A stretch of DNA of 64,000 nucleotides, taken from positions 1 through 64,000 of the forward strand of contig DATLUO010000068.1 in the NCBI GenBank assembly GCA_035533075.1. The letters are read 5' to 3'. The DNA comes from Pirellulales bacterium. Lineage in GTDB: Bacteria > Planctomycetota > Planctomycetia > Pirellulales > JAICIG01. The notes below the pieces were generated by a model that had not been told where the DNA came from, did not search any database, and saw only the letters and a list, made by a program, of their open reading frames with translations. How positions within the stretch are numbered: the stretch's first letter is position 1; each line of letters begins with the position of its first letter. Position numbers and translations under genes: made by a program. Shown here piece after piece: positions 74 to 57,073 of this stretch.

Positions 74-136
74 TGAACCCTGAACCCTGAACCCTGAACC
101 CTGAACCCTGAACCCTGAACCCTGAACCCTGAACCC
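74..136. repeat. Nine perfect tandem copies of TGAACCC
   Basis: Nine uninterrupted copies of the heptamer TGAACCC fill this stretch. The complementary unit (GGTTCAG) occurs four times at 28661-28688. The array is intergenic, upstream of prpB. Any apparent peptides through it are artefacts of the repeat. Confidence 0.95.
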
Positions 137-142
137 TTTGAC

Positions 143-182
143 GGTGGGCCGGCGCTCGCAAGCTCGCCGGCCCCACCTTACG
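143..182. repeat. Dispersed hairpin repeat (GGTGGGCCGGCG family)
   Basis: A 40-bp unit that folds on itself: GGTGGGCCGGCG pairs with CGCCGGCCCCACC around a GCTCGCAAGCT-type centre. Closely related copies lie at 25817-25855, 25935-25973, 51022-51061, 51074-51112, 53965-54003 and 54072-54110, with a partial copy at 1144-1166. It resembles a REP-type intergenic element. Confidence 0.8.
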
Positions 183-244: not shown

Positions 245-1129
245 ATGGCCATACCTTCACCGGGCAGTAAACTACGCGAAGCGGTCGCCGACGCCACTCT
301 TCCCGTGCCGGGGGCATTTAACCCCCTGGTCGCGAGAATGATTGAAGATATGGGTTTCGAGGCCGCATACCTGTCGGGCGCGGCGTTCTCGGCCGGCGAG
401 CTGGCCCTGCCCGACATCGGCCTGTTTACCCTCTCGGAGTTGGCCGAGCAAGCCCGCCGCACGACCCGCAATCTCGGCATACCGCTGATCGTGGATGCCG
501 ACACCGGCTTTGGCGAAGCGATCAACGTGGAACGCACGGTGATCGAGCTGGAGGCGGCCGGCGCGGCGGCTATCCAGCTCGAAGACCAGCGGCTTCCGAA
601 ACGCTGCGGGCACCTTTCCGGCAAGAGCCTGGTGTCGATCGAAGAAATGTGCGCCAAGCTTCGGGCGGCCGCTTCCGCGCGGCGCGACCCCGACCTGGTG
701 ATCGTCGCCCGCACCGATGCCCGTGGCGTCGAAGATTTCTCGTCGGCGCTGGTCCGCGCGCGGCGCTATCTCGAAGCGGGCGCCGACTGGATTTTTCCGG
801 AAGCGTTGGCCGACGAAGAAGAGTTCACGACTTTCGCTCGCGAGATCGACGCTCCGCTGGTGGCGAACATGACGGAGTTCGGCAAAAGCCCATTATTCAC
901 CCTCGATCAACTGGCCGAAATGGGATACTCGGCCGTGCTTTATCCGGTGACGCTGATGCGCGTGGCGATGAAGGCGGTGGAGGCCGCGTTGGCGATGCTC
1001 GCCTCCGAGGGTACGCAGCGCGACCTGCTCGATCTGATGCAGACGCGTCAAGACCTTTACGACCTGCTGCGCTACCACGACTACGAAGCCCGCGACCGGG
1101 CCTTCTTCGGCAACGCGCCGCCGCCGTAG
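245..1129 (+). CDS. prpB: Methylisocitrate lyase (PEP mutase / isocitrate lyase superfamily)
   Basis: This 294-residue protein should cleave 2-methylisocitrate to pyruvate and succinate, the last step of the methylcitrate cycle for propionyl-CoA. The superfamily metal-binding segment VDADTGFG lies at residues 83-90 and E113 follows. The catalytic signature KRCGH is at 119-123, with C121 as the expected catalytic cysteine. The C-terminal MQTRQDLYDLLRYHDYE stretch matches PrpB rather than carboxyphosphonate mutases. The residue after KRCGH is Leu where enterobacterial PrpB has Arg. No prpC or prpD lies beside it; an aconitase gene is 6 kb downstream. A related oxaloacetate decarboxylase-type activity is the main alternative. 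Confidence 0.85.
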   Translation: MAIPSPGSKLREAVADATLPVPGAFNPLVARMIEDMGFEAAYLSGAAFSAGELALPDIGLFTLSELAEQARRTTRNLGIPLIVDADTGFGEAINVERTVIELEAAGAAAIQLEDQRLPKRCGHLSGKSLVSIEEMCAKLRAAASARRDPDLVIVARTDARGVEDFSSALVRARRYLEAGADWIFPEALADEEEFTTFAREIDAPLVANMTEFGKSPLFTLDQLAEMGYSAVLYPVTLMRVAMKAVEAALAMLASEGTQRDLLDLMQTRQDLYDLLRYHDYEARDRAFFGNAPPP

Positions 1130-4656: not shown

Positions 4657-5028
4657 GTCCAAGCCAACGGCGCGGTAGAACACAGGGAGCCACGTGCGCG
4701 GATGCCCGCAACCGATCCAACCCAAGCCAGTCGCGAGATAGAACACAAGAATGTTTCGGTTCCGAGCGGATGACGCTGGAAGCCCGCGCCGGAAACATAC
4801 CACCGCGGAACTACGAGATGATGGAATCCTTCGGGTTTTTCCCGTTAGTGCAAATTTGCACGAACGGGGCGGAACGGCATCCATCACGGCGGAGCGTGAT
4901 ACGCCGGGACGCGAAGCATGCCAAGCCAGTCGCGCGGTAGAACGGCAGCAAGACAGAAAGATTATCAGACAGAAAAAATGAGCGACGAAACCCCCAATCC
5001 AAAATCGAAAATCGACAATCCAAAATTG
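4657..5028. repeat. Mosaic repeat island I
   Basis: No gene is supported between 4640 and 5321. The stretch holds modules that recur elsewhere. Three copies of a CCAAGCCAGTCGCGCGGTAG-like unit lie at 4657-4686, 4721-4749 and 4921-4945. A 55-bp unit (4811-4865) contains the palindrome GTGCAAATTTGCAC and is about 90% identical, inverted, to 28965-29019. A hairpin ATCACG-GCGGAG-CGTGAT is at 4883-4900. A GACAGAAA...GACAGAAAAA unit is at 4952-4984. A heptamer run of ATCCAAA-type units occupies 4997-5028. Confidence 0.8.
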
Positions 5029-5321
5029 AAGCCCCGCCCCCCAGATTTATCGTTGCGGCGCCAAAATGAGCCGCCCGAGAATATCGGCGCAAAGCCCAGC
5101 GGGCCAAGGGCTCGCGGGCAGGGCAAACCGGACACGTGCGTTGTTTTTGACAAGGTTAAATATTTTATGACAAGGGTAATTCGAGGCCACCCAACCGCAC
5201 GTCGATGCGGAACCGGTCGCCTGGAGCGACCACCGCATCCAATCCTGGGACGCCCTCACCCGTCCCTCCCGGTGGCAGGCGGCGCGCAGCGCCGGCTCAG
5301 GTCTTTGACAATTTGGTAGAC

Positions 5322-13264: not shown

Positions 13265-13573
13265 GGCTGGTCTAAGTTAGGTGACCTGATCGTAGTGGGA
13301 CGACGGCGGCATGTCCAAAAAGAGGACGTCGCAGGGAGAGGCTGAAGAACGCCAAATTGTACCCAAGTTGCCTTGCATTCGGCAGGCGTTGCCTTTTGAC
13401 AACACGCGGTGGACTTCCGGCAACTCTCGTCGGCGAGCTTAAGGATACCAAGTGGAAGTAACCTGCTTCGCCGCCGCTGGTTACATGCGATGGCACTCGC
13501 GCGGCATTCGCCTTGCGGTACGAGTCCAGCACCTGATGCCTGACGCCTAACATAACATCGCCTTTCCCACTCC
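13265..13573. other. Intergenic stretch with a CCTGAYG heptamer run
   Basis: No gene is supported here. Three heptamers (CCTGATG, CCTGACG, CCTAACA) lie at 13532-13552, ending 21 bp before the next start codon. The rest shows nothing recognisable. Confidence 0.6.
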
Positions 13574-14686
13574 ATGCTCCACGTCACAGAAATCAACGAT
13601 CCGGCAGAACTCGCGGGCTGCCGCGTCCTTTGGAAGTCGCTGTTGGCCAAAACACCGGGTGCGACGTTCTTTCAATCGCTCGACTGGCTGGAGCCTTATT
13701 GGCGGCATTTCGGGCACGACCAGAAGCTGCGCGTGCTCGTGGTCCGCGCCGGCGACGAGACCCTCGGCATCGTGCCGTTGGTCGTCCGCACCGAGAAAGC
13801 CAAACTGGGCAGGGCGCGGGTGCTCACCTATCCGCTCGATCACTGGGGCACTTTCTATGGCCCGATCGGAGCCCAGCCCGCGGCCACCTTGATCGCCGCC
13901 TTGCAATACCTCCGTACGCGGCCGCGAGATTGGGATTTGCTCTCGCTGCGCTGGGTGCATCGCGACGGCGGCGATCGGGGACGGACGCTACGGGCCATGC
14001 GGTTCGTCGGTTGGACCCCGCTGGAAGAGCCTGGCGAACAGGTTCCCGTCATCGACATGAGCGGTCCGTGGGACGACTATTGGTCGACGCGCGACGGCCA
14101 TTGGCGCGGCAACGTGGCCCGCAGCCAACGCAGGCTGTCCGAACAGGGCGAGATCGACTATGTCCGTTATCGACCGGCGGGCATCGCCTACGGCGACGCC
14201 GACCCGCGCTGGGATCTGTTTGAGCAGTGCCTGCGGGTGGCACGCCAGAGTTGGCAAGCGGGCGTGCGCCATGGCACGACGCTCTCGCACGACTCGCTGG
14301 CTGCGTACCTGCGCGATGCCCACCTGGCGGCCGCACGTGCCGGCGGCCTCGATCTGAATCTCTTGACGGTGGGCGGCCGCCCGGCGGCGTTCGCCTATAA
14401 CTTTCACCATCACGGTCATCTGTTTGGCCTGCGGATGGGTTACGATGCCGCGGTCAGTCGTCACGGGTGCGGCACGGTGCTTTTGCGGCGGATGGTCGAA
14501 GACAGCTTCCGCCGCGGCGACCACACCTTCGACCTTGGTCCCGCCTCGCTCGATTGCAAAAGGCACTGGCAGACGTCGGTCGAAACGAGCTATCGCTACA
14601 CGCATTTCGCGTCCCGCGCCCCCCGCGTTCAAGCGCTGCGGTTGAAACGCCATGTTCAACGCCGCTTGGCGGCCCACATTGGATAA
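13574..14686 (+). CDS. CelD/BcsL-type acetyltransferase (FemAB-like GNAT)
   Basis: A 370-residue cytoplasmic protein of the CelD/BcsL acetyltransferase class. It has an N-terminal TFFQSLDWLEPYWRHFG segment and the central WRGNVARSQRRLSEQGEIDY typical of these enzymes. The C-terminal GNAT-like fold includes GGRPAAFAYNFHHHGHLFGL, GCGTVLLRRMVEDSF and DLGPASLDCKRHW. Members are usually tied to exopolysaccharide or cell-surface acylation, but no polysaccharide cluster is adjacent. The acceptor cannot be predicted. Confidence 0.8.
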   Translation: MLHVTEINDPAELAGCRVLWKSLLAKTPGATFFQSLDWLEPYWRHFGHDQKLRVLVVRAGDETLGIVPLVVRTEKAKLGRARVLTYPLDHWGTFYGPIGAQPAATLIAALQYLRTRPRDWDLLSLRWVHRDGGDRGRTLRAMRFVGWTPLEEPGEQVPVIDMSGPWDDYWSTRDGHWRGNVARSQRRLSEQGEIDYVRYRPAGIAYGDADPRWDLFEQCLRVARQSWQAGVRHGTTLSHDSLAAYLRDAHLAAARAGGLDLNLLTVGGRPAAFAYNFHHHGHLFGLRMGYDAAVSRHGCGTVLLRRMVEDSFRRGDHTFDLGPASLDCKRHWQTSVETSYRYTHFASRAPRVQALRLKRHVQRRLAAHIG

Positions 14687-23020: not shown

Positions 23021-24634
23021 TCACTCCTCATGGAGCAAGGCCGGCTTGATGGTCCAGGCCTGTCGCTTGGCCAACTCCATCATGGCCGGGGCACGAAAGC
23101 CGGGTGGAAAAATCACCCAGCCCCAAAGTTGCGGCCCGTCGTCGGCCACGTACCGCTCCGCCGCCAGGTGGGCAGGCTTCAACACGACCGACTCGGGCGG
23201 AACCCCGCCGCCAGCCAAATCAGCGGCCGCGCCCGCCAACGCAACCAGGTAGCTCTCCGGCGGCGCTGACTTGCTGCCCAGCCAAACGGCGTTCGGTACT
23301 CGATTGTGCCATTCGACGTAGTCGGCCATGTCTTTGGCCGTCCGCGAGAACTGCGACCAATCGACGGTCAAGTCGCCGCTCAGCGTCGGCGTCGGCCCGG
23401 TGGGGCCGAGCGGCGAGGTTTTCAAACGTAGCGTCGCCTGGCCCGGACCGCCGCTCTCGGCCACAAATTGATTCAGCAGCGCGAAAACTTCGCTCGCCGC
23501 CAGCGTGAAGCCATCGTGCCGCTGAAACGAGACCTCGCGGGAAACACGCTGGGCGATGGTCTTGATGTCGCGGGGGCCAAATTCGCGGTCGCGCGCCTGG
23601 TCGCGGTAAAGCCGCGCCGCTTCGGAAGCGGTGATGAACCGCACGTCGTTGAAGCCGCGAAGGTAGCGGATGTAGCCCTCGAAGTTGCGCCAGGCGAGGG
23701 CCGACTCCGCGGGGCTTTTCCGCGGCGGCAGCTTCCACTCGTCGCGCGGCGGATTGGCGCCCTGGCGGAAGTTGACGCCGTCCCAGAACTCTTTGTGAAC
23801 GAATTCGCAAGGATGATAGTAGATGCTCACCACGCCGCCACCTTGCTCGCGCAAGGCCGCTCGGGCGTTTTGAAAGCGGTCTTCCGCCGCGCGCAGGTCG
23901 CTTTCGGCGTTCAGCCCGGTGCGCAAGGTGTGGGCCAGCCGGTAGAGCGTAAGCACGCCGCAGTAGTAGTGCGGCTTGTCGTCGAGGCCGACGTGCCCTC
24001 CGGCGTCGAGATAGACCGGCATCTGCCAACGCCGCATGCCGCCGAACGACTGCGGCGCCCAGGAGCTGCCCGGCTGACCGTAGCAGCTTGGCGCCTGTCC
24101 GAAAATCCGCTCGACGTCCGCCCGGCCTGGTCCCTCGCGACGGTCGAACTCCGCGACGCCCTCGTCCCAACCCAGCACCGAGAGATACATGGCCGGGCTG
24201 GGCTGGACGCTGTGCCAGTTGGAGTGATAGCCGATCTCGTGCTTCTTCAGCGCGTCGATCACATCGTAGCGCTGGCGAAGCTTCAGCGTGCGGGCCTTTT
24301 CGCCCACCACCTTGAACGTGGCCCGGATGTCTTGCTCGCTGAGAAATCGTGCCAGCCGCAGGGCCGCGTCGTCGCTGGCCGGCAGAAGGTAGTCTTCCGT
24401 GTCGAACCAGAGCACGACATAGACGCCCGCCGGCTCCTTCGCCGCGGCCGGGCAAGCGATCAGGGCCAAAAGCGCGAGAATGACCGCCCACGTAGGGAAG
24501 GGCCGGCGAACGGATCGCGATTTTGGATTTTCGATTTTGGATTTTGGATTCCCGTCAATCCAAAATCCAAAATCCAAAATCCAAAATCGTCGGAAGCTCT
24601 CTCGCCCCAGTCTATCGGGTTCTCTGGACTGCAT
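23021..24634 (-). CDS. Polysaccharide deacetylase-like protein (start uncertain)
   Basis: The mature protein has NodB-type features: VVLWFDTEDYLLP (D78, D81 by this numbering), ATFKVVGEKA and EIGYHSNWHS (H137, H141), giving the metal-binding Asp-His-His. A signal peptide lies at about 43-65 (RRPFPTWAVILALLALIACP). The 40 residues before it are encoded largely by the inverted heptamer repeat at 24519-24588 (FWILDFGFWI, then PKSKIENPKS). No ATG or GTG exists between that repeat and the signal peptide. ATG 24634 is preceded by GGGAG. The enzyme probably acts on an extracellular glycan. Confidence 0.75.
   Translation of the reverse strand: MQSREPDRLGRESFRRFWILDFGFWIDGNPKSKIENPKSRSVRRPFPTWAVILALLALIACPAAAKEPAGVYVVLWFDTEDYLLPASDDAALRLARFLSEQDIRATFKVVGEKARTLKLRQRYDVIDALKKHEIGYHSNWHSVQPSPAMYLSVLGWDEGVAEFDRREGPGRADVERIFGQAPSCYGQPGSSWAPQSFGGMRRWQMPVYLDAGGHVGLDDKPHYYCGVLTLYRLAHTLRTGLNAESDLRAAEDRFQNARAALREQGGGVVSIYYHPCEFVHKEFWDGVNFRQGANPPRDEWKLPPRKSPAESALAWRNFEGYIRYLRGFNDVRFITASEAARLYRDQARDREFGPRDIKTIAQRVSREVSFQRHDGFTLAASEVFALLNQFVAESGGPGQATLRLKTSPLGPTGPTPTLSGDLTVDWSQFSRTAKDMADYVEWHNRVPNAVWLGSKSAPPESYLVALAGAAADLAGGGVPPESVVLKPAHLAAERYVADDGPQLWGWVIFPPGFRAPAMMELAKRQAWTIKPALLHEE
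24519..24588. repeat. Inverted heptamer (ATCCAAA) hairpin
   Basis: Two 32-base arms (24519-24550 and 24557-24588), each built of ATCCAAA-type heptamers in opposite orientation, pair at 31 of 32 positions around a 6-base loop. A near copy sits at 25857-25926. It overlaps the predicted 5' end of the deacetylase gene. Confidence 0.95.
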
Positions 24635-25816: not shown

Positions 25817-25973
25817 GTAGGGTGGGACCAGCGAGCTTGCAAGCGCCGGCCCACGCGATTTTGGATTTTGGATTTTGGATTTTCGATTATGGTCAATCCA
25901 AAATCCAAAATCCAAAATCCAAAATTACGACGATGGTGGGCCGGCGCTCGCAAGCTCGCTGGTCCCACCCTAC
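25817..25973. repeat. Composite palindrome: hairpin-repeat arms around inverted heptamers
   Basis: The outer arms are two copies of the GTAGGGTGGGACCAGCGAGC repeat in opposite orientation (25817-25855 and 25935-25973). The inner arms are ATCCAAA-heptamer arrays of 32 bases each (25857-25888 and 25895-25926; 30 of 32 paired, 6-base loop). The whole 157 bp can fold into one long hairpin. Its right end supplies the TAG stop codon of the VWA gene. Confidence 0.95.
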
Positions 25974-28287: not shown

Positions 28288-28642
28288 TCACTCGATGATT
28301 TTATTGCCGAACAGAAGTCGGTCGATTTCGGCCAGCCGGAACTCGCGCCGCTTGCCGATGCTCTCGTTGACCAGCCGCATCAGGGCCTCGGCTTCGATGA
28401 ACACGACGCCGCGAATGGGCGTGCCGGTCATGAACCGGGCGAGCTTGTCGAGATCGTCGTGCCGGAAGCCGCGGCCGATGACGGCGAAATAGACGCGTTC
28501 GATACCCGATGCGGCCAATTCACGTGTGTGGGTCGTGGCGCAGGATGTGTTGTTCGTAGATTCCGCAATCGCGCTGGCTGGGCGGCCGTTCGTCCGCCGT
28601 CGTCCGGTTGGCAGGTGTCTGCGCCTTTTCTCGCTTGGGCAT
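28288..28642 (-). pseudogene. Disrupted small gene of unknown family
   Basis: From ATG 28642 (MPKREKAQTPANRTTADERP) the frame closes at PHT just after CGIYEQHILRHD. In another frame the protein continues as RELAASGIERVYFAVIGRGF, DDLDKLARFMTGTPIRGVVF and a helical end (EALMRLVNESIGKR, then EIDRLLFGNKIIE). The second part looks like a conserved alpha/beta tail and may resemble the end of restriction-endonuclease-like proteins, but I cannot assign it. The junction near 28520 suggests a frameshift. The end abuts the VWA gene. Confidence 0.4.
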
Positions 28643-28660
28643 GGTGTTGGGTTCTCCGAG

Positions 28661-28688
28661 GTTCAGGGTTCAGGGTTCAGGGTTCAGG
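28661..28688. repeat. Four copies of GTTCAGG (TGAACCC family, inverted)
   Basis: Four tandem GTTCAGG units are the reverse complement of the nine-copy array at 74-136. Confidence 0.9.
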
Positions 28689-28812
28689 GGGCCGGTTTGC
28701 TTGTGAAAAACAAGAATCAAGCGCGCCGTCTGGGCCATCTAAGTTGTTCGAGGCCCGTGGTTTGCGGCGATTCGAGGAAGCATCGACGCTGACTTGTACA
28801 AGCGCGGAACCA

Positions 28813-28955
28813 TCTGGCGGCTCTGTAGGGAACGCCCTCCGTGGCGTTCCGAGGTCTGGCGGCTCTGTAGGGACCGCCCTCCGTGGCGTTCCGAGGTCGT
28901 GCGGGTTGGCGCCGACCGCGCTGCGCGGAACGCCACAGAGGGCGTTCCCCACAGA
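28813..28955. repeat. 42-bp tandem pair plus inverted partial copy
   Basis: Two adjacent 42-bp units (28813-28854, 28855-28896) both contain TGGCGGCTCTGTAGGG and CGCCCTCCGTGGCGTTCCG and differ at about one base. An inverted partial copy (GCGGAACGCCACAGAGGGCG and beyond) lies at 28924-28955. No gene is supported. Confidence 0.85.
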
Positions 28956-28964
28956 GCGCTCCTC

Positions 28965-29426
28965 GTTCGTGCAAATTTGCACAAGCGAGAAAAACCCGAG
29001 GGATTTCATCATCTCGTAGCTCTGAAGAGGGGATGAGCGATGAGGCATGAGGGATGGCCAAAATAAAGTCGCGAGTTGGGCGTTGAGGGGCGTTCCGCGG
29101 TGGTCCGGTCCTGCCTTCTTGCACTTTACTCGCCGACTGGCTTGGGCACGTATCGTAGGCATCACGCTCCGCCGTGACGGAACCTTTCGGCCGCGGATGC
29201 TGACAGAAGAACTACCTGGCAGAAAAATGGGGAACGCGGCCGTCGAGCGAGGCGCCATTGGCTCATTTTTCTGTCAGGTGGTTTTTCTGTCATCCGTCTC
29301 TTTGAGCGCGGTTCATCCCTGCTGGCTCATCACTCATCTTGCACGGCCATTGGCTTGCATGGCTCTCGCGATGCGCTCGTCCACCGCTTGGCTGATTCCG
29401 GTCCCTCGTCTCTCATCCCTCATCTT
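28965..29426. repeat. Mosaic repeat island II
   Basis: This gene-free stretch carries inverted counterparts of modules in island I. The 55-bp GTGCAAATTTGCAC unit is at 28965-29019. Heptamers GGATGAG, CGATGAG and GCATGAG are at 29031-29051. A CCAAGCCAGTCG-like unit is near 29126-29145 (complement). The ATCACGCTCCGCCGTGAC hairpin is at 29161-29178. A GACAGAA...CAGAAAAATG unit appears in both orientations (29202-29231 and 29261-29291). CCCTC-type heptamers lie at 29401-29421. A diverged 55-bp unit follows at about 29509-29566. The remaining bases to 29689 show nothing else. Confidence 0.75.
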
Positions 29427-29689: not shown

Positions 29690-32600
29690 CTATTTCTTCG
29701 CCAGCGGACCGGGCCGCCGCACGTGCAGCGTGACGGGCTGCGAGGCCTGACCGCCGGCGTTGTTGGCCAACGCATAGAACTTGCGATCGATGTCGGGCAC
29801 CCAGCGGGCACAGGTCAGAAAGATTTGCCGCTCATCCTGGCCTTCGGGAATCAAAACGCCGTTCAGCCCGATGTTGTCGACAATCACACCGTGCGGCAAA
29901 TTGTCGACGTCGAACTGCACGCGGTCTTTGAAGCCGTTGCGATCCACCTTCAGTGTGGCCGTGATGGTTGTGCCCGGTGCAATCGTCAGGTCGGCCGGCT
30001 CCAGCCGCACGATCAAGTTTGGTTTGTCGGCCAGCTTCACCTGCCCGAGGCCGTTCACCTCTTTGGTCACCGTTTGTCCGGCGATCTGGGCTTTGGCTTT
30101 GATCTTCACCTGCTGCCAGGCTTCGGGCGGCGGCTGCGCGGCGTCGGCCGTGGCGTTGAGCACCGCACGGGCTTCCACGTGACCGGCCTGAATCACGACC
30201 GGCGTGGAGATGGCGAATCCGGCGGGCAGCCCGGCCACTTCGATCGTAACGTCGTCGTCAAAGCCGTCGTGGCGATCGACCGAAAACGACAGCCGGCGGC
30301 CGCTGCCGCGGGCCACGGTCGGGTTGACGTCGGCCAGGCGGACCTCGAAATCGGGCTTCGGCCCGCGCACTGTCAGCCGATAGACAAAACGGTCGCCGCT
30401 GAAACCGCGCACGTCGCTGACACGCACCAGGTACGCCCCGTCGGCCGGCACCGTACACGTCAGTCGCGAGTCGCGGCCGAGCTTCCGCTCCATATCGTCG
30501 TCGTTCGCATAGTAAAGAGGAAAGACCGGCAGGCCGTTAGGCACAAGCTTGTCGCCGGGCGGGTGCGGCTCGACCGTGTAGCAAGAGTCGCCCAGAGCGT
30601 GGCTCGTCGGGCTGGTGTCGAAATAATTCCGCCGCCGGCCTCCGAGTTGATAGAAGGCGAGTTCCGAGTCGGGGCCTTGCGGCATGCGGAACACGCGACA
30701 GACTTCGCCCTGCACATACATGAACTCGTTCATCTCCATCTCCTCCCAGTTCTTTGGCCGCAAGCCGCCGCTGTTGGAATCGATGCCGCGGAACTCCAGG
30801 TAGCTGTCTCGCACCGCTTGCAGCAACAGCCGCAAGACCGGCATACCCTTGGCATCCAGCACGTCCAATCGCGTGTCGATCGGCGAGCCGCGCCGTTCGC
30901 CCTCCGTCTCGATTATCCAAGTCTGGCCGGCCTTGGCCTCGAAGCGAAACAGATCGACGTCGCCCGCCGAGGCGATGCGGCCGTTGACGCTGCCCGGCAC
31001 GGCGATGGGCGTCGCCTTGTCGGCCGCGTCGTTCGGCTCGGCCTCCACCAATTCCGACGCGGCACTGGCCAGCACGTTCAGCGGCCGGCCGACGCGGAAG
31101 CGATTCGTATCGATCGGCACGGGCCGGTCGCCGGGCGGTCCGGCAGGCAGCTTGAGGCGCGTGCCCGGCGGCACGTTGTAACCGACCAGCTCGACTTCGG
31201 CCTCTTGATTCGCAGGCACGCTGACTGGATAGCAGGCGGTGACGTAGGGCAGTTCGCCGACCGAGAGGCGATAAAAATGCTTGTCGGAGCCGGTCAACGC
31301 CAGGTCGCTGATGCGGACGGTGTAGCGGCCGTCGGCCGGAACCGTGTAGGCCACGAGCGGATCTTGCCGCCCGTCGAAATCGTTGTTGCCGGCCACGACT
31401 TCGCCCGCCGGATCGAGCAGCGTGAGCACGCCGTCGAGGGCCGAGCCGAGGCTCTTGGCCGCCAGTTCGCAAACGATCGTTTGCCCGGCCTTGGCCTCGA
31501 AGGCGACATGATCGACGTCGCCGCGGGCGGCGAGCGTTCCCCAGATTCCCGCCGGCAAGGCGACGACCGCGGCGTTCTTGGGCGAGTTGTTCTCTTCGGT
31601 TTCGGCCACCTGCGGCAGATCGTCGACCTCGATCGGCATGCTGCCGCTCTTGCCGCCCTCGGTTACGATGCCGACCTGATAGGAGCCTCGCGGCAAATCG
31701 GCGGCCGGCGTGATCTCGACCCACGTTTCGTCGGCCCGCTCGGTTTCAGCCGATACGACCTTGCCTTGCAGCTTCGGGTGGTTGAATTCGATGCGAAGTG
31801 TGCCGGCAAGACCATTCGTGGGGCGGGCTTCTGGCCCGTCATGGACCGGATCTTTGACGGCCTGGGAAGGCCGCCCCACGAGATATTTGCCGGTGAGCTT
31901 CACGCGGGTGGTTGTGCCTCGCTGCACGCCGCGCGGCCAAAGCGCGGCCAGTTCGGGCTTGGGCGGCGGAATCATCTGGCCGTTGGTGTCGTCATAAAAA
32001 GCGAAGGAGCCGTCGAGGCGGCCCACGAGCAGCGTCTTGTTGTCGGCGGTCAGTGCCAACGCGGCCGGCCAGTCGGGCTGGGCGACGAGCGAGAGCCGCT
32101 CGATGACCTGGTCCGCATTCCAGACCCGCACCGTGCGGTCCTCCGCCGAGCTGGCCAGCGTTTTGCCGTCGCGCGACCAAGCCAGTTCGATGATCGCCCC
32201 TTCGTGCGCGAAGCGCGTGATGGCCAGCGGGTTGGTTCCTTCCTTTGCCGAGTCGCTCAGATTCCAGACGCGAATGCGGTTATCGACGCCGCCGGCCGCC
32301 ACGCGCCGCCCGTCGGGACTGAAGACAACGGCGTATTGCTCCTTGAGCGGTTGGCCGAAGGTGTCGAGCCGGTTGCCGCTGGCCACGTCCCACAGCTTGA
32401 CCGTGCGGTCGGCGCTGGCGCTGGCCAAGAGCTTGCCGTTGGGACTGAAAGCCAGATCGAACACGGCGCCGTTGTGCCCGGTGATGGTGCGGACTTCTTG
32501 CCCGGTGGCGGCGTCCCAGAGTTTGATGTCCTGGTCGTAGCCGCCAGTGGCGATCAGCTTGCCGTCGGCACTGATCGCGGCCGCATAGAGCGAATCGCGA

Positions 32601-33337
32601 TGGCCGACGATGGTCCGCACGAGAGCGCCGTCGGCGACGTTCCACAGCTTCAACTCTCCGAACAGGCCCGGCTCGCCGGCGGCGCTAATGAGTTTCGCGC
32701 CGTCGGACGAAAAGGCGACGTCGGCCACGCTGCCGCGATGGCCGGCGAGCGTGCGAAGCGTGGCTCGGCTGGCCGTGTCGACCAGCCGCACTTCGCGGTA
32801 GCCGGCCAGGGCAGCCAGCTTGCCGTCGGGACTGACCGCCGCGGCGTTGATCACCTTGCGGGCCGGCGCGAGCAAATCGACTTTGGGTGTGACCAGCATC
32901 GTGGGGTCGGGCGGCTGGCCGTTGGGATTTTTCGCCCCCGCGTCGACCCATGCCCGGACCAAGGCGATCTCTTCCGCTTTCGGCCGCTCGTTGTCTTCCG
33001 GCGGCATGACGGGTTCGATCTTCCCTTCGAGCATGAGCACCAGCCGGCTTTGATCGCTCTTGCCCGGCAGCAGCACCGCGCCGCCTTCACCGCCTTTGAG
33101 CAGCGTCTCGTAGCTTTCCAACACCAGCTTGCCTTCGGCATCTTTGGCGTTATGGCAGCCAAGGCAGTATTGCTTGAAGATCGGCGCGATGTGCTGGTTG
33201 TAGTCGGGCGGGGCGGCGGCGCCGACGGCTCGGATGAAGGCAAAAAGAGCGCAGGCGAACTTCAGTCCAAAGTCTAAAGTCCAACGACCAAAATCCAATA
33301 AGCGCTTGGAAGCAATCACAATATCCTCGCTAGACAT
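29690..33337 (-). CDS. Cytochrome-domain (PSCyt1) WD40-repeat secreted protein
   Basis: A 1215-residue planctomycete-type exported protein. After a signal peptide (FACALFAFIRAVGAAA, about 27-42) comes a PSCyt1 domain with the haem motif CLGCH (58-62). Seven or so WD40 blades follow, each with a GHxxxVxxVAFSPDG / DxTVKLWD pattern, from about residue 155 to 450. The second half has pre-peptidase-type beta domains (GDVDHVAFEAKAGQTIVCE and GDVDLFRFEAKAGQTWIIE are clear pairs). These proteins are usually encoded with DUF1549/1553 and DUF1501 proteins, as here. Residues 13-25 are encoded by variant heptamers (33265-33299), so the true start may be later. Confidence 0.85.
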   Translation of the reverse strand: MSSEDIVIASKRLLDFGRWTLDFGLKFACALFAFIRAVGAAAPPDYNQHIAPIFKQYCLGCHNAKDAEGKLVLESYETLLKGGEGGAVLLPGKSDQSRLVLMLEGKIEPVMPPEDNERPKAEEIALVRAWVDAGAKNPNGQPPDPTMLVTPKVDLLAPARKVINAAAVSPDGKLAALAGYREVRLVDTASRATLRTLAGHRGSVADVAFSSDGAKLISAAGEPGLFGELKLWNVADGALVRTIVGHRDSLYAAAISADGKLIATGGYDQDIKLWDAATGQEVRTITGHNGAVFDLAFSPNGKLLASASADRTVKLWDVASGNRLDTFGQPLKEQYAVVFSPDGRRVAAGGVDNRIRVWNLSDSAKEGTNPLAITRFAHEGAIIELAWSRDGKTLASSAEDRTVRVWNADQVIERLSLVAQPDWPAALALTADNKTLLVGRLDGSFAFYDDTNGQMIPPPKPELAALWPRGVQRGTTTRVKLTGKYLVGRPSQAVKDPVHDGPEARPTNGLAGTLRIEFNHPKLQGKVVSAETERADETWVEITPAADLPRGSYQVGIVTEGGKSGSMPIEVDDLPQVAETEENNSPKNAAVVALPAGIWGTLAARGDVDHVAFEAKAGQTIVCELAAKSLGSALDGVLTLLDPAGEVVAGNNDFDGRQDPLVAYTVPADGRYTVRISDLALTGSDKHFYRLSVGELPYVTACYPVSVPANQEAEVELVGYNVPPGTRLKLPAGPPGDRPVPIDTNRFRVGRPLNVLASAASELVEAEPNDAADKATPIAVPGSVNGRIASAGDVDLFRFEAKAGQTWIIETEGERRGSPIDTRLDVLDAKGMPVLRLLLQAVRDSYLEFRGIDSNSGGLRPKNWEEMEMNEFMYVQGEVCRVFRMPQGPDSELAFYQLGGRRRNYFDTSPTSHALGDSCYTVEPHPPGDKLVPNGLPVFPLYYANDDDMERKLGRDSRLTCTVPADGAYLVRVSDVRGFSGDRFVYRLTVRGPKPDFEVRLADVNPTVARGSGRRLSFSVDRHDGFDDDVTIEVAGLPAGFAISTPVVIQAGHVEARAVLNATADAAQPPPEAWQQVKIKAKAQIAGQTVTKEVNGLGQVKLADKPNLIVRLEPADLTIAPGTTITATLKVDRNGFKDRVQFDVDNLPHGVIVDNIGLNGVLIPEGQDERQIFLTCARWVPDIDRKFYALANNAGGQASQPVTLHVRRPGPLAKK

Positions 33338-43516: not shown

Positions 43517-44830
43517 ATGGCCCTCATGCGCACCGAGCAGCAATTTGAGACCGCGCGGCAGTACCTGGCGGGCGGAGTGTCGGCGTCGATCCGGGTCAAT
43601 CGGGCATTGGGACGGCCGATGTATTTCGACCGGGCCGAGGGGTGCCGACTGTGGGACCTCGACGGCCGCGACTACCTCGATTTATGCACCAGCCACGGCG
43701 CCACGCTCCTGGGCCACGGCGACCCGCAGGTCAGGGCCGCCGTCGATGCCGTCTTGGCGCGCGGAGCGGCGTGCTCCTATGAAAACGAGTTGCACGCCGA
43801 ACTGGCCCGCCTGATTTGTGAAACGGTGCCTTGCTGCCAGCGCGTGCGATTCACCGGTTCGGGCACCGAGGCCACGATGCACTGCATCCGGCTGGCGCGG
43901 GCTTTTACCGGCCGGCCCAAGCTGTTGAAGTTCGAAGGCAACTTTCACGGCTACCACGACCAGGTGATGTTCGCCCTGGGCACGCCCGCCGATCGGCTCG
44001 GCCCGGAAGAGGCGCCGACCGCGTTTCCCGCCTCAACGGGCATCACGCACGGCATCGAAGAACAACTCGTGCTCGCCCCTTACAACCGGCCGGAATTGCT
44101 GGAACGGATTATCCGGCGGCACGCCCACGAGTTGGCCGCCGTGATCTGCGAACCGGTGTGGTACAACGCGGGCTGCATCGTCCCCACAGCCGACTTTGTG
44201 GCCGCCCTGCGCGGTTTGACCCGCCAGCACGGCATTCTCTTGATTTTCGACGAGGTGCTCAGTTCGTTCCGCATGGCCGCGGGCGGGGCACAGGAATATC
44301 TGGGCGTGACGCCCGACCTGTGTACCTTGGGCAAGGCGGTGGGCGGCGGTTTTCCGCTCAGCGCCTTCGGCGGCCGCCGCGACATCATGGACCGGCTGAT
44401 GCCGCAAGGCGACTGCCAGCACAGCGGCACCTACAGCGGGCATCCCGTGCCGGTGGCCGCCGGCCTGGCTGCGCTGGCCCGCTACCGCGAAGCCGGCTTT
44501 TACGTTCACATCCACGCCCTCGGCAAACGGCTCATGGACGGCTTAAACGAACTCTTCGCGCGGCATGGCGTGCCGGGACGCGTGTATGGCCTGGGAGCAC
44601 GGTTCGGCATTTATTTCGGCATCGAGCAGCCCCAAACCTACCGCGACTTGCTCGCACATCGACGCGACCTAATGCTGGCTTTCGTCAGGGCGGCGATCGA
44701 GGAAGGCGTGTACTTTCACGACTATGGCGGCGCGCCCTGCCATCACGGCTTTTGCGCCGCGATGACGCTGGACGACGTCGATGAAGCCTTACGGAGGTTA
44801 GGTCAAGCAATTGCCAAGATGCAAACGTAA
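43517..44830 (+). CDS. Glutamate-1-semialdehyde aminomutase-like, class III aminotransferase
   Basis: A 437-residue PLP enzyme of the GSAM/class III fold. It has the phosphate-binding FTGSGTEATMHCIRLAR and the helix region EGNFHGYHDQVMFALG. LLIFDEVLSSFR carries the ring-binding Asp. K273 in LGKAVGGGFPLSAFG is the expected Schiff-base lysine. A start at 43526 is also possible. Because the next gene is an M81 peptidase-type hydrolase rather than a haem gene, a catabolic or secondary-metabolite aminotransferase is more likely than hemL. Confidence 0.8.
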   Translation: MALMRTEQQFETARQYLAGGVSASIRVNRALGRPMYFDRAEGCRLWDLDGRDYLDLCTSHGATLLGHGDPQVRAAVDAVLARGAACSYENELHAELARLICETVPCCQRVRFTGSGTEATMHCIRLARAFTGRPKLLKFEGNFHGYHDQVMFALGTPADRLGPEEAPTAFPASTGITHGIEEQLVLAPYNRPELLERIIRRHAHELAAVICEPVWYNAGCIVPTADFVAALRGLTRQHGILLIFDEVLSSFRMAAGGAQEYLGVTPDLCTLGKAVGGGFPLSAFGGRRDIMDRLMPQGDCQHSGTYSGHPVPVAAGLAALARYREAGFYVHIHALGKRLMDGLNELFARHGVPGRVYGLGARFGIYFGIEQPQTYRDLLAHRRDLMLAFVRAAIEEGVYFHDYGGAPCHHGFCAAMTLDDVDEALRRLGQAIAKMQT

Positions 44831-44850
44831 TCCCTCATCTCTCATCCCTC
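44830..44850. repeat. ATCCCTC heptamers directly before a start codon
   Basis: ATCCCTC, ATCTCTC and ATCCCTC run without gap into the ATG of the M81 gene, occupying the position of the ribosome site. No Shine-Dalgarno is visible. Confidence 0.85.
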
Positions 44851-46386
44851 ATGCGAATCGCCGTCGGACAACTCTGGCAAGAGACCAACACCTTCAACCC
44901 GCTGCCGACGACGCGGGCCGACTTCGACCAGTTCGGCGTACTGCACGGCGACGCGCTCATCGAGCAGATGGCCGACACGAACGAGCTGGGCGGCTTCATC
45001 CAGTCGTTGCGGGCCTGGCCCGAGCGGCCGGAAATTGTGGGGCTGGTCCGTTTGCCCGCCTGGCCTGGCGGGGTCGTCACCGCGGAAACGTTCGATTGGA
45101 TCCTGTCGGAATTCACTTCGGCAGTTTGTCGGGCGATGCCGGTCGACGGCGTCCTGCTGGCCTTGCACGGAGCGATGGTGGCCGACCGACACCCGGATGT
45201 CGAGGGCGAAGTCCTGCAAGCGGTGAGGCAGCTCCTCGGCGCCGTCCCCTTGGTCGCCACGCTCGACCTGCACGCCAACGTAACGCGGAAGATGGTCGAC
45301 GCGGCGGACGCGCTGGTGCTGTTTCACACCGCGCCGCACATCGACGTGTTCGAAACCGGCCAGCGCGGGGCCCGGCTGCTGAGGCGAATCCTCATCGAGG
45401 GTGCCCGGCCCGTGACCGCCTTCCAGAAGCTGTCCATGGTCGTGCCGGCCGAACGGGCCAACACGCAGGATCCGGCCAGCGTCAGCTACGGCTTTCGCGA
45501 GCGGCTTCAGGCGCTGGAACGGACGCCCGGCATCTTGGCGGCCGGGCTGGCCACGGTGCAGCCTTGGCTCGACGTGCCCGAATTGGGCTCATCGGTTGTG
45601 GTGGTGGCCGACGCCACTCACGCCATCCCGCCGCGTGGCGGAATTTCACGCACTGAAAACATGACTTCTCACGAAGTCTGCGACACTCCAGGCGAGGTGG
45701 CCTGCCGAGACTTGGCCGAAGAACTCTGGCAGCGGCGGCGAGACTATTTGCCCGAGCTGGTGCCGGTCGAGCAGGCCGTGCGCGAGGCCCACGAAGCTGG
45801 CGACGGGCTGGTCGTATTGAGCGACAGTGCCGACGCCACGACGTCCGGCGCTCCGGGCGACAGCACGTGGGTGTTCAAGGAATTGTTGACGTACGACTGG
45901 CCCCACGGCGCTCTGGTTCCGCTCGTCGCGCCGGAGATTGTCGAGCGGGCAACCGCCCTGGGCGAAGGCGCCCCGCTGCGGGCCGCGATCGGCGGTGTGC
46001 GCGACGCGCGGTTCTCACAGCCGGTGGAAATCGACGCCCGAATCGAACGGCTGTTCCGGGCCGAGTTCGTTCTGTCGGGCCATCTCGCCAAGAATTTGCC
46101 GGTCGACATGGGGCCGTCTGCGGTCTTGCGGTGCGGCGACGTGTTGGTGTTCGTGACGTCGAAGAGCGGGCCGCACTTCGCGCCCGAATTCTTCCGTTCG
46201 GCCGGCTTCGACCCCTTCGCGGCCAGCGTGGTGGTGGCCAAAAGCCCCTGCGGCTTCCGGGCGGCCTACGCCGATCGGGCAAAGCGGATCATCGTGGTCC
46301 GCGCTCCCGGCTGCGCCCCGGCCGACTTCTGGAACTATCCTTATCGGAACATCCCCCGCCCGCTTTGGCCGTGGGATGACCTGTGA
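44851..46386 (+). CDS. M81-family metallopeptidase (MlrC/microcystinase C-like)
   Basis: A 511-residue MlrC-type protein. It begins MRIAVGQLWQETNTFNPLPT, with the conserved Gln-Glu-x-Asn-x-Phe motif. Further family segments are GVLLALHGAMVADRH, LVATLDLHANVTRKMVDA (metal-site Asp/His) and LVLFHTAPHIDVFETGQRGA. The C-terminal VLVFVTSKSGPHFAPEFFRS and IIVVRAPGCAPADFW complete it. The physiological substrate is unknown; members cleave small linear peptides or related amides. It starts 20 bp after the aminotransferase gene and is likely co-transcribed. The start codon abuts heptamer repeats. Confidence 0.85.
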   Translation: MRIAVGQLWQETNTFNPLPTTRADFDQFGVLHGDALIEQMADTNELGGFIQSLRAWPERPEIVGLVRLPAWPGGVVTAETFDWILSEFTSAVCRAMPVDGVLLALHGAMVADRHPDVEGEVLQAVRQLLGAVPLVATLDLHANVTRKMVDAADALVLFHTAPHIDVFETGQRGARLLRRILIEGARPVTAFQKLSMVVPAERANTQDPASVSYGFRERLQALERTPGILAAGLATVQPWLDVPELGSSVVVVADATHAIPPRGGISRTENMTSHEVCDTPGEVACRDLAEELWQRRRDYLPELVPVEQAVREAHEAGDGLVVLSDSADATTSGAPGDSTWVFKELLTYDWPHGALVPLVAPEIVERATALGEGAPLRAAIGGVRDARFSQPVEIDARIERLFRAEFVLSGHLAKNLPVDMGPSAVLRCGDVLVFVTSKSGPHFAPEFFRSAGFDPFAASVVVAKSPCGFRAAYADRAKRIIVVRAPGCAPADFWNYPYRNIPRPLWPWDDL

Positions 46387-53964: not shown

Positions 53965-54110
53965 GTAAGGTGGGACCAGCGGGCTTGCGAGCGCCGGCCC
54001 ACCGAGTTGAGGCCTCGGGTTTCAGGCGTCAGGACAAACTACTTGGTGCCTGGTGCCTGACGCAGAACGATGGTAGGCCGGAGCTCGCAAGCTCGCTTTT
54101 TCCACCCTAC
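53965..54110. repeat. Composite palindrome: hairpin-repeat arms around CCTGAYG heptamers
   Basis: Outer arms are opposite copies of the GTAGGGTGGGACCAGCG-type repeat (53965-54003 and 54072-54110). Between them CCTGACG-type units occur in both orientations (complement near 54022-54033; CCTGGTG and CCTGACG at 54049-54062). The architecture repeats that of 25817-25973 with a different heptamer inside. Confidence 0.85.
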
Positions 54111-54177: not shown

Positions 54178-54220
54178 ATCCCTTATCCCTCATCCCTCAT
54201 CCCTCATCCCACTATCCCTC
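54178..54220. repeat. ATCCCTC heptamer array upstream of the cytochrome gene
   Basis: ATCCCTT, three ATCCCTC, ATCCCAC, a single T and a further ATCCCTC end 9 bp before the start codon, again where a ribosome site would be. Confidence 0.85.
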
Positions 54221-54229
54221 ATCGTTGCT

Positions 54230-57073
54230 ATGACCACCGCTTCAACCGCGCCGCCGGAACCACGGCCGGCGCCAAAAAAATATGTCCGCGCAGTCGGTCC
54301 GCGACTGCGCAAGCTGCTCTATCTGGTGTTCGCCTTGCTGGCGCTGCTCGGCGCCAACTCGGGCTACCTGGCCAGCATCACCGCCCTGGAAGCCCTCACC
54401 GGCCGCACGTATCAGAACTACTTCTATCAATACATGTTTCTGGGGCACCTCATTCTCGGCTTCGTTCTCATCGCCCCCTTCATCGCCTTCGGCTTGATCC
54501 ACATGCTCAATTCGTGGAGCCGCCGCAATCGCCGCGCGGTGCGCGTGGGCTACGCCTTGTTCGCCGTCTCGATTCTGGTGCTCGTCACCGGCGTGCTGCT
54601 GACCCGCGTCGCCGGCCTGTTCGAGCTGAAGCAGCCGCAAACGCGCTGGCTGGTTTACTGGCTGCACGTGGCCTGCCCGTTGGCCGCCGGCTGGCTCTAC
54701 TGGCTGCACCGCCTGGCCGGCCCGCGCATCAAGTGGAAAGTCGGCTTCGCCTACTCCGGCGTGGTGGGCGTGGTCGTGCTGGCCATGGTCGCGCTGCACG
54801 CCCAAGACCCGCGCAAGTGGAACGTGGCCGGACCCAAAGACGGCGAGAAATACTTCAAGCCCTCCGAGGCCATCACGGCCACGGGCAACTTCATCCCTGC
54901 CAAAACGCTGATGATGGACAATTACTGCCTGAAGTGCCATCAAGACGCCTTCCAGGGCTGGTTCCACAGCGCACACCACCTCAGCTCATTCAACAACCCG
55001 GCCTACCTGGCCAGCGTGCGCGAGACGCGCGAGGTGGCGCTGAAGCGCGACGGCAGCGTGCAAGCCTCGCGTTGGTGCGCGGGTTGCCACGATCCGGTTC
55101 CGTTCTTCAGCGGCGCTTTCGACGATCCGAAGTTCGACGTGGTGAAAGACCCCACCTCGCAGGCCGGCATCACCTGCACCGCCTGCCACGCTATCACCAA
55201 CGTCGACAGCACGATCGGCAATGCCGACTACACCATCGAGGAGCCGATCCATTACCCGTTCGCCTTCAGCGACAACGCCGTGCTGCAATACATCAACAAC
55301 CAGCTCATCAAGGCCAAGCCGTCGTTCCACAAGAAGACGTTCTTGAAAGATTTTCACAAGACGGCCGAGTTCTGCTCGACCTGCCACAAGGTGAACCTGC
55401 CGAAAGACGTGACGCACTACAAAGATTTTCTCCGCGGGCAGAACCATTACGATCCGTACCTGCTCAGCGGCGTGTCGGGGCATGGTGCGAAGAGCTTCTA
55501 TTATCCCGACAAGGCCAAGACCAACTGCTCCCAGTGCCACATGCCGCTGGAGAAGTCGAACGACTTCGGGGCGAAGCTGTTCGGCGACGCCACGGAGCTG
55601 AGCATCCACAGCCATTTCTTTCCGGCGGCCAACACGGCCCTGGCTTGGTTCAACAATGCCCCAGCGGCGATGGCCGCCGAGCGGAAGTTTTTGGAAGGCG
55701 TGATGCGGGTCGATATTTTCGGCGTGCGCGAAGGCGGCGGCATCGACGGCAAGCTGATCGCGCCCTTGCGGCCCAAGCTGCCCACGCTCAAACCGGGCCG
55801 GCGTTACCTGCTGGAAACGGTGATCCGCACGCTCAAGGTCGGGCATCTTTTTACCCAGGGCACGGTCGATTCCAACGAAGTCTGGGTCGATGTCGCGGTG
55901 ACCAGCGGCGACCGCGTGATCGGCCGCAACGGCGGCATCGGCGACGACGGCGAAGTCGATCCCTGGTCGCACTTCGTCAACGTGTTCATGCTCGACCGCG
56001 ACGGCAACCGCATCGACCGCCGCAACCCGCAAGACATCTTTGTGCCGCTTTACAACCACCAGATTCCGCCGGGCGCCGGGCAAGTGGTGCATTATGAGCT
56101 GCGGTTGCCCGACGACCTGACGCGGCCGGTGACGATCGAGATGAAGCTGCAATACCGCAAGTTCGACCAGCGGTACCTGGATTACATCACCAAGTCGGCC
56201 AAGCCGGGCGACAATCCGATTCGCGGCTACACGCCGGGCCAGCCGTTCCGCAACGATTTGCCGGTGACGACGCTGGCGGTCGATCGCGTGACGCTGCCGG
56301 TGGAAGGCGTCGAGGCGAAAACGCAGATCGTCGAGTCAAAGATCGACCCCTGGCAGCGCTGGAACGATTACGGCATCGGCCTATTGTTGGAAGGACAGGG
56401 CGGGGCCAAGGGCGAGCTGAAGCAGGCCGAAGAGGCGTTCAATCGCGTGGAGGAACTGGGCCGCTACGACGGGCCGCTCAACCTGGCCCGCGTGTACTTC
56501 ACCGAAGGGCGGCTCGACGAGGCCGTCGACGCCCTGAAACGGGCGGCCGAATTCACCAGTCCACCCGCACCGAGCTGGACCATGAACTGGCTGAGCGGGC
56601 AGATCAATCGCCAGCAAGGCCACTTGGTCGAGGCCGAAAGGAATTTTCGTAGCGTGTTGGAAGAGAAAACGCAGGAGATGATCGACCGCAATTTCGACTT
56701 CAGCCTCGACTATGAGGTGATCAACCTGCTGGGGCAAACGCTGTTCGACCTGGCCAAGCAATCGCACGGCCCCAAACGGCAGGCCCAGCGAGAGGCGTAT
56801 CTGCGGCAAGCGGTCGGAGAGTTCGAAAAGACGCTCACGCTCGACAGCGAGAACGTGGCCGCGCATTTCAACCTGCAGCACCTTTACGCCCAGCTCGGCG
56901 AGAAGCAAAAATCGGAAGAGCATCACAAGCTGCACCTGCGGTACAAGTCCGACGACAACGCCGGCGACCGGGCGATGGCGCTGGCCCGCCAAAAGTATCC
57001 GGCGGCCAATCACGCCGCCGAATCGGTGGTCGTGTATTCCTTGCACCACCCTACGGAGAACCCGAATGACTGA
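54230..57073 (+). CDS. Membrane-bound five-haem cytochrome c with TPR domain
   Basis: A 947-residue protein. Four membrane helices occupy residues ~30-190 (LRKLLYLVFALLALLGANSG; MFLGHLILGFVLIAPFIAFG; LFAVSILVLVTGVLL; VVGVVVLAMVALHA). Five CxxCH haem sites follow: CLKCH 233-237, CAGCH 283-287, CTACH 316-320, CSTCH 382-386 and CSQCH 433-437, with nearby His residues as axial ligands. The C-terminal ~250 residues are TPR-like helices (AEEAFNRVEELGRY; ARVYFTEGRLDEAVDALKRA). It resembles cytochrome c554-type electron carriers. It overlaps the next gene by 8 bp. Confidence 0.85.
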   Translation: MTTASTAPPEPRPAPKKYVRAVGPRLRKLLYLVFALLALLGANSGYLASITALEALTGRTYQNYFYQYMFLGHLILGFVLIAPFIAFGLIHMLNSWSRRNRRAVRVGYALFAVSILVLVTGVLLTRVAGLFELKQPQTRWLVYWLHVACPLAAGWLYWLHRLAGPRIKWKVGFAYSGVVGVVVLAMVALHAQDPRKWNVAGPKDGEKYFKPSEAITATGNFIPAKTLMMDNYCLKCHQDAFQGWFHSAHHLSSFNNPAYLASVRETREVALKRDGSVQASRWCAGCHDPVPFFSGAFDDPKFDVVKDPTSQAGITCTACHAITNVDSTIGNADYTIEEPIHYPFAFSDNAVLQYINNQLIKAKPSFHKKTFLKDFHKTAEFCSTCHKVNLPKDVTHYKDFLRGQNHYDPYLLSGVSGHGAKSFYYPDKAKTNCSQCHMPLEKSNDFGAKLFGDATELSIHSHFFPAANTALAWFNNAPAAMAAERKFLEGVMRVDIFGVREGGGIDGKLIAPLRPKLPTLKPGRRYLLETVIRTLKVGHLFTQGTVDSNEVWVDVAVTSGDRVIGRNGGIGDDGEVDPWSHFVNVFMLDRDGNRIDRRNPQDIFVPLYNHQIPPGAGQVVHYELRLPDDLTRPVTIEMKLQYRKFDQRYLDYITKSAKPGDNPIRGYTPGQPFRNDLPVTTLAVDRVTLPVEGVEAKTQIVESKIDPWQRWNDYGIGLLLEGQGGAKGELKQAEEAFNRVEELGRYDGPLNLARVYFTEGRLDEAVDALKRAAEFTSPPAPSWTMNWLSGQINRQQGHLVEAERNFRSVLEEKTQEMIDRNFDFSLDYEVINLLGQTLFDLAKQSHGPKRQAQREAYLRQAVGEFEKTLTLDSENVAAHFNLQHLYAQLGEKQKSEEHHKLHLRYKSDDNAGDRAMALARQKYPAANHAAESVVVYSLHHPTENPND

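Follow-up and report, generated by a model that had tools for sequence, protein, structure and literature searches.

Why do tandem repeats of unrelated sequence in a planctomycete genome share one period of exactly seven bases? The question is raised by contig C68 of a Pirellulales bacterium, from which the 64,000-nt stretch analyzed here (the window) is taken; the assembly of this genome (G000; 8.54 Mb) is fragmented into 296 contigs. A first-pass annotation of the window had described several families of heptamer arrays, likened them to cyanobacterial STRR sequences, and proposed a common generating or selecting mechanism.

Heptamer arrays of the window

Tandem Repeats Finder and direct reading of the window located seven-base arrays at nearly all of the places where the first-pass annotation had put them; five places are strong, and the rest are short or degenerate. 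Although several members are short or degenerate, the set as a whole is far beyond chance: six perfect runs of at least three copies occur at period 7 and none at periods 4 to 6 or 8 to 15, and Markov-2 shuffles of the window gave 0.0 period-7 runs of this kind. Below, + marks arrays that are G-rich on the plus strand, and - marks those that are C-rich on it.

The arrays had been treated as independent families, a view that has to be given up, as they are arms of convergent composites with filler between. A degenerate (GGCATCA/GGCGTCA)n arm (24-51, +) and a strong, perfect (CTGAACC)9.3 array (73-137, -), previously given as separate tracts at 24-51 and 74-136, form the left and right arms of a single composite around the core AAAAGTCAATTCAAGTGTTT (52-72). 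The right arm runs toward a PEP-mutase-like gene with a start near 245-338 (+), and a GTAG-type REP palindrome, GGTGGGCCGGCGCTCGCAAGCTCGCCGGCCCCACC, lies at 141-178 (+). The same order of arm, core, and CTGAACC array recurs in an identical arrangement at L051, L056, and L007, which makes four copies in sampled sequence, most with flanking REP palindromes. Two more of the strong places are convergent pairs. One, between two minus-strand genes, consists of a (GATTTTG)4.6 left arm (24519-24550, +) and an (AATCCAA)4.6 right arm (24557-24588, -) with a 6-nt spacer; the other, (GATTTTG)5.1 (25857-25892, +) and (AATCCAA)4.4 (25895-25925, -), is flanked by REP palindromes at 25820-25856 (-) and 25935-25973 (+), the right one inverted relative to the left. 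A degenerate GGGATGA array (80%; 29030-29056, +) and a degenerate TCCCTCA array (81%; 29402-29424, -) share one gap, again in the order + then -, and short convergent tracts, TTTCAGGCGTCAGG ... TGGTGCCTGGTGCCTGACGC, adjoin a REP palindrome at 54022-54062.

Other arrays lie near or at gene edges. A strong (GGTTCAG)4.3 array (28660-28689, +), the complement of the CTGAACC family, is 142 bp outside the gene at 28288-28518 (-), and a strong (ATCCCTC)6.4 array (87%; 54178-54223, -) stops 6 bp before the ATG of a gene at 54230 (+). The entire 20-bp gap between the stop of an aminotransferase gene (44830) and an M81/MlrC gene is occupied by (ATCCCTC)3.3 (87%; 44830-44852, -), and the ATG of the latter gene (44851) is inside the array. 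A degenerate AGTCCAA array (75%; 33264-33298, -) falls in the start region of a minus-strand WD40/PSCyt1 gene as called (29690-33337), and a degenerate AATCCAA array (78%; 4996-5030, -) may encode the N-terminal end of a small open reading frame (4918-5319, +). Three CCTGAYG units (13532-13552, -) lie upstream of a GNAT-domain gene at 13574 (+); the CCTGAYG tracts at 24-51, 13532-13552, and 54022-54062 are degenerate and have little meaning if taken alone. The window also contains a second palindromic repeat family, TCTGTAGGGAACGCCCTCCGTGGCGTTCC, at 28813-28960, with two 42-bp copies in tandem plus others; this family is found at many sample loci and within the filler of a kinase insert described below.

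Period preference across the genome

Our total sample was 1.04 Mb of stretches, about 12% of the one genome of this species. In 377 kb of arbitrary stretches, picked without reference to matches and scored for perfect tandem runs at 14 or more matched bases, 15 runs occurred at period 7, 1 at period 9, and 0 at periods 4, 5, 6, 8, 10, and 11, and a Markov-3 control contained 0 runs. A second arbitrary sample of 344 kb, scored at 11 or more matched bases, had 44 runs at period 7, 2 at period 6, and 1 each at periods 8 and 9, with 0 to 2 runs per period at 4 to 6 and 8 to 11. The preference for period 7 suspected from the window thus extends to stretches across the genome. Genome-wide, three copies of CTGAACC gave 497 overlapping matches (268 forward and 229 reverse; control, 1 and 0), and three copies of AATCCAA gave 144 (79 and 65; control, 0). 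The Markov controls rule out chance or composition as the source of the arrays, and a pervasive weak 7-periodicity of all intergenic DNA was not seen after array-bearing gaps were removed.

Among 158 sampled arrays there are 29 distinct units, and GGG/CCC is present in the units of 73 arrays and absent from those of 85. Copy numbers fall monotonically (78, 49, 17, and 7 arrays of 3, 4, 5, and 6 copies), with no four-copy peak in this sample. An assembly artifact is unlikely to produce the pattern, because it recurs in isolates and in other assemblies. In several assemblies, contigs start or end within heptamer arrays (C17:1-118 of this genome, L050:6119-6248, L091, and L098); short-read assemblies thus break at long arrays and give copy numbers that are too low, which suggests that long arrays are under-represented in the data.

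Strand polarity and placement at genes

Neighboring opposite-strand arrays within 250 bp of each other follow one order. Read on the plus strand, the G-rich array is on the left and the C-rich array on the right in 31 pairs from the 1.04-Mb sample, and the reverse order was found 0 times; 16 of these pairs share a unit and 15 combine different units. The corresponding ratios are 5:0 in a sister genus (G001; 931 kb), 1:0 in each of two further planctomycetes (G008 and G313), and 24:0 at 118 loci from other phyla, giving 62:0 for all cellular genomes sampled, from many phyla. The loci from other phyla were taken from among the matches listed for a degenerate G-rich pattern, with no selection on partners, and include Acidobacteriota, Chloroflexota, Bacteroidota, Verrucomicrobiota, and Pseudomonadota; four cyanobacterial loci (L137, L156, L173, and L176) have the identical polarity. 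Exceptions are 4 C-then-G cases against 21 G-then-C cases among IMG/VR loci, which include some redundancy, to which relaxed settings add a single C-then-G case from other phyla and a single +-+- region of G000. The rule is therefore near-absolute, not absolute. It persists when one or both units lack GGG (22/31 and 13/31 pairs) and includes units incapable of forming G-quadruplexes. Generic inverted repeats in array-free gaps were divided 57:40, without comparable bias, so that a general inverted-repeat bias is not seen as a cause of the polarity.

A second strand rule concerns placement relative to genes, which were called by a codon-usage gene finder written for this analysis, with approximate gene edges. 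The 5' side of the G strand adjoins a gene, and the 3' side faces the gap: a gene lies within 25 bp of the 5' side versus the 3' side in 62 versus 15 cases in G000 and 26 versus 4 in the sister genus. Median distances to the nearest gene are 34 bp versus 109 in G000 (Wilcoxon P = 6e-6) and 18 versus 148 in the sister genus (Wilcoxon P = 3e-5), and the G strand is nearer its 5' neighbor gene in 96/132 and 36/45 cases, respectively. This rule applies to gene starts and gene stops alike and is also found in other phyla, solitary arrays included. Transcription-coupled expansion is excluded, as tandem gene pairs hold both orientations in one transcript. The common generating or selecting mechanism proposed at the outset gains support here, since all unit families follow one strand polarity and placement; one polarity over many units and bacteria hints at a common repeat-adding process.

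Junctions of old and new DNA

The first-pass annotation placed all arrays between genes or at gene ends. This is correct for most of them, but at least 14 sample arrays lie in frame inside called genes and are translated there as NPKSKIQ or GSGFRVQ. The evidence on junctions comes from comparing about six cases, at the level of genes, with the one sister genus. A kinase-WD40 gene (L056:16571-19999) has three in-frame array inserts, of which the one inside the kinase domain reads GSGFRVQGSG-filler-IENPKSKIQN; in the orthologue from the sister genus, 65% identical over the kinase part, both array ends of this insert are kept and the filler is completely different. A second insert of the same gene, filler with an NPKSKIQ array at its right edge, is absent from the orthologue. 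Likewise, a 19-amino-acid insert in an AAA_25 gene (L061:11877), again filler and then an array at the right edge, is missing from the sister-genus homologue. The in-gene inserts follow the polarity rule although they lie in the middle of coding sequence. Elsewhere, a Cas1 gene (L063:1206-2468) has a (CTGAACC)3 array in frame within a C-terminal extension.

Six of 23 syntenic gene pairs have arrays in at least one genus. In one gap, the sister genus has 79 bp, filler plus five CTGAACC copies adjoining the gene, where the G000 genes abut; in another, the gene-adjacent array is common to both genera and the remainder is unrelated. Two gaps have different units at one gene edge, and in one of these both genera have + and - arms, with differing units and filler. 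As for the window's array pair at 25857-25925, the sister genus keeps the gene pair, and its gap is unrelated and without such arms. In all informative comparisons, the G strand exits old sequence and enters new. Judged from these alignments, arrays sit at the junction of old sequence and variable filler. A BLAST search with 10 fillers returned mainly array and REP-type matches and showed no source copies for them.

The arrays themselves change in whole units. Near-identical viral contigs with identical flanks have 5.4, 7.4, 8.3, 9.4, 10.4, 13.3, and 16.4 copies; such whole-heptamer changes are direct evidence of slippage.

A proposed heptamer-step extension of DNA ends and its rivals

The reading that we favor, tentatively and with slightly less than even confidence, is that the arrays are scars left by insertion or by the repair of DNA ends; 3' ends at breaks would be extended in heptamer steps and then joined. 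The period, the polarity, the placement at old/new junctions, the in-frame inserts, and the whole-unit copy changes at fixed flanks are all observed; from them we infer synthesis from the old 3' end, breaks as the trigger, and a responsible polymerase. A break would usually fall in intergenic DNA and sometimes at a loop-coding point within a gene. Synthesis that slips or uses the array as template would then lengthen the old DNA at its 3' end, in exact seven-base steps and as a G/T-rich strand. Filler of unrelated sequence, often with REP palindromes, would be added next, and the ends would be joined. Where both ends were extended, filler would come to lie between a G-rich array on its left and a C-rich array on its right, with the polarity that two telomeres have after fusion. 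Later, whole heptamers would be gained or lost through ordinary slippage, and filler would turn over faster than arrays. Given a constant step over varying unit sequences, the seven-base period would be set by polymerase geometry, with no fixed template.

Array ends are locked in phase, as expected if extension begins at preferred microhomologies. AACCCTG arrays of G000 begin on the G strand at AGGG or GGG in 41/50 cases, and AAAATCC arrays begin at GATTTT or ATTTT in 34/41; the latter finish at GGATT in 29/41 cases, and those of other phyla do so in 23/49. Against end extension stands the age of the units: if arrays grew solely at the inner 3' end, the outer units should be the older ones, but the outer and inner sides have equal degenerate continuation, and the predicted gradient of ageing outward is not seen. 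The fillers for which BLAST showed no source copies and the few polarity exceptions also count against it. As to joining, Ku is found in 2/18 array-bearing planctomycetes versus 38/294 overall. Ku is therefore not required, classical nonhomologous end joining is not the joiner, and Ku-dependent joining is unsupported.

Arrays could instead be selected boundary elements, for which a G-rich strand leaving every gene, and a C-rich strand entering, is useful as an RNA hairpin, a G-quadruplex, a Rho loading site, or some other insulator between transcription units. We regard this as possible but doubtful. The gene-edge placement and a strand rule independent of gene orientation fit it, as do the + / - architecture retained at one orthologous gap despite changed units and filler and the reported conservation in place of 83% of Xanthomonas repeats between two species (PMC4692102). 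The individual roles fare worse: 85/158 arrays have units without GGG, so the G-quadruplex is out as a general cause, and the four-copy peak is missing (78 arrays of 3 copies, 49 of 4, and 17 of 5). Rho loading is likewise out as a universal cause, since cyanobacteria, described as lacking Rho (PMC13289151), have the identical polarity; pairs of different units are incapable of a full hairpin; and mid-coding inserts obey the polarity where there is no gene boundary. Functional boundary models are thus weaker than end extension. G000 itself has two genes with Rho RNA-binding domains (C276:19814 and C42:10371; open frames of 516 and 439 amino acids).

Ordinary replication slippage in intergenic DNA, combined with purifying selection, is an unlikely, though not negligible, explanation of the whole pattern. 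Period 7 would be favored by polymerase contact length, which Mrazek and colleagues had suggested (cited in PMC4692102), and polarity would reflect one-sided instability 3' of the G strand, tolerated only away from genes. Slippage accords with the whole-unit copy changes at fixed flanks, the period-7 excess in many phyla, and the scarcity of arrays in genes, and with one-sided instability it covers the order of pairs as well as the gene-side rule; it leaves unexplained the filler that arrives with an array, the conserved composite blocks, and the identical units dispersed over many loci and over unrelated phyla. It is improbable that arrays are instead parts of REP/BIME-like or other nonautonomous elements moved by Y1 (RAYT-type) transposases. 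The genome has 12 Y1_Tnp (RAYT-like transposase) matches and 823 copies of the GTAG-type REP palindrome GTAGGGTGGGACCAGCGAGCTTGCGAGCGCCGGCCCACC (at most 2 mismatches; control, 0), often as inverted pairs about 44 bp apart; those in the window are at 141-178, 25820-25856, 25935-25973, and 54065-54100. A REP head lies within 60 bp of 12% of arrays versus 4% of random intergenic places, and one composite (array, core, array, mostly REP-flanked) occurs at 4 sample loci. Yet some 80% of arrays are more than 300 bp from any REP head, units and spacers differ freely from array to array, arrays of this type are found in many phyla, and Rehm et al. report no general link with mobile elements (PMC4692102). 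Least probable, in our view, is that a telomerase-like reverse transcriptase of bacteria, such as DRT10, adds the repeats from a template. DRT10 is described as making tandem-repeat cDNA by telomerase-like repeat addition (PMC12632851), and phase-locked ends would suit it; however, each such system is reported to have one unit, with a period that differs between systems (9 nt for Eco3DRT10; PMC12632851), and the 29 units of G000 that share one period are the reverse of this pattern.

End extension may have a wider form, which we hold with considerable doubt: many bacteria would possess an unrecognized break-healing activity that adds G/T-rich repeats of any unit to 3' ends in fixed seven-base steps, before filler joining. 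Such an activity would parallel telomere healing, either without a template or with the array as template. If this is true, heptamer break healing would be a major source of new intergenic DNA in these lineages and of new protein linkers (NPKSKIQ and GSGFRVQ).

Relation to known repeats

An excess of period 7 has been known since 2007, when a survey described it for most of the bacterial genomes covered (cited in PMC4692102 and PMC4679880); the head-to-tail heptamers over-represented here relative to neighboring periods are of this class. A polarity at junctions that does not depend on the unit and is common to many phyla confines the cause to a strand-specific process at the DNA level. With it, G-quadruplexes, Rho, and Ku can be put aside as general explanations, and the finding shows a route for the origin of intergenic DNA and in-frame protein inserts.

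The closest published relatives are the G-rich repeats GGGAATC and GGGGA(C/T)T described in Xanthomonas and Nostoc by Rehm et al. in 2015 (PMC4692102). Period-7 preference, convergent pairs, and the gene-side rule are published for the Xanthomonas GGGAATC repeats, and the gene-side rule, with few pairs, for those of Nostoc (PMC4692102). Like the arrays studied here, they are mostly intergenic, with 2 to 26 copies that vary in number between species, form convergent inverted pairs (70 to 75 cases in Xanthomonas), and have the G strand nearer the 5' neighbor gene whatever the gene orientation. Unlike ours, they have one G-quadruplex-forming unit type per species and a four-copy peak; here, 29 units occur in 158 arrays, half lack GGG, the peak is absent, and there are different-unit pairs, locked phases, and filler and in-gene junction evidence.

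The likeness to STRR heptanucleotide repeats, reported from filamentous cyanobacteria such as Calothrix PCC 7601 (cited in PMC4692102), was right in kind: several unrelated heptamer units per genome, intergenic in both, with a planctomycete as the host here, an origin that the PSCyt1 domain of a window protein supports. The period-7 excess is found in many phyla and is not special to cyanobacteria. The open-access literature yielded no strand-polarity analysis of STRRs; the cyanobacterial loci sampled here obey the polarity of the G000 arrays. The TAACTGA direct repeats of marine Beggiatoaceae, for which MacGregor proposed a role in translation (PMC4679880), are also heptamer arrays, mostly directly upstream of start codons, but differ in having a single unit, 2 to 6 copies, and one reported inverted case in 169 sets (PMC4679880). 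GTAG REP/BIME elements with RAYT (PMC3733652) resemble the arrays in being intergenic, in inverted pairs, abundant in G000, and interspersed with arrays, but they are a defined palindrome with a GTAG tag and are nontandem, and most heptamer arrays have no REP nearby. The arrays lack such a palindrome, and the REPs are a separate feature. Eukaryotic interstitial telomere repeats from break healing, and DRT10 or telomerase, share a way of working, not membership: in each, the G-rich strand faces the junction, the arrangement is head to head, and repeats are added stepwise, whereas the arrays here have no fixed template, with a sequence that varies and a period that is constant.

We found no description of planctomycete heptamer arrays in the open-access literature searched, the coverage of which is incomplete. 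New relative to that literature are the many units in one genome under one polarity, the mixed-unit pairs, the breadth across phyla, the phase locking, and the junction and filler evidence.

Two observations from other genomes stand beside these comparisons. The isolate Kordia jejudonensis has 74.6 copies of TTTTGGG in one array (L099:2112-2633), followed by several other heptamer families. Viral or prophage contigs L225, L220, L229, L254, L263, and L277 have a (GGATTTA)n array near position 640, directly after a short open reading frame resembling an integrase C terminus; the contigs diverge about 60 bp beyond the array, and the site is perhaps an attachment site.
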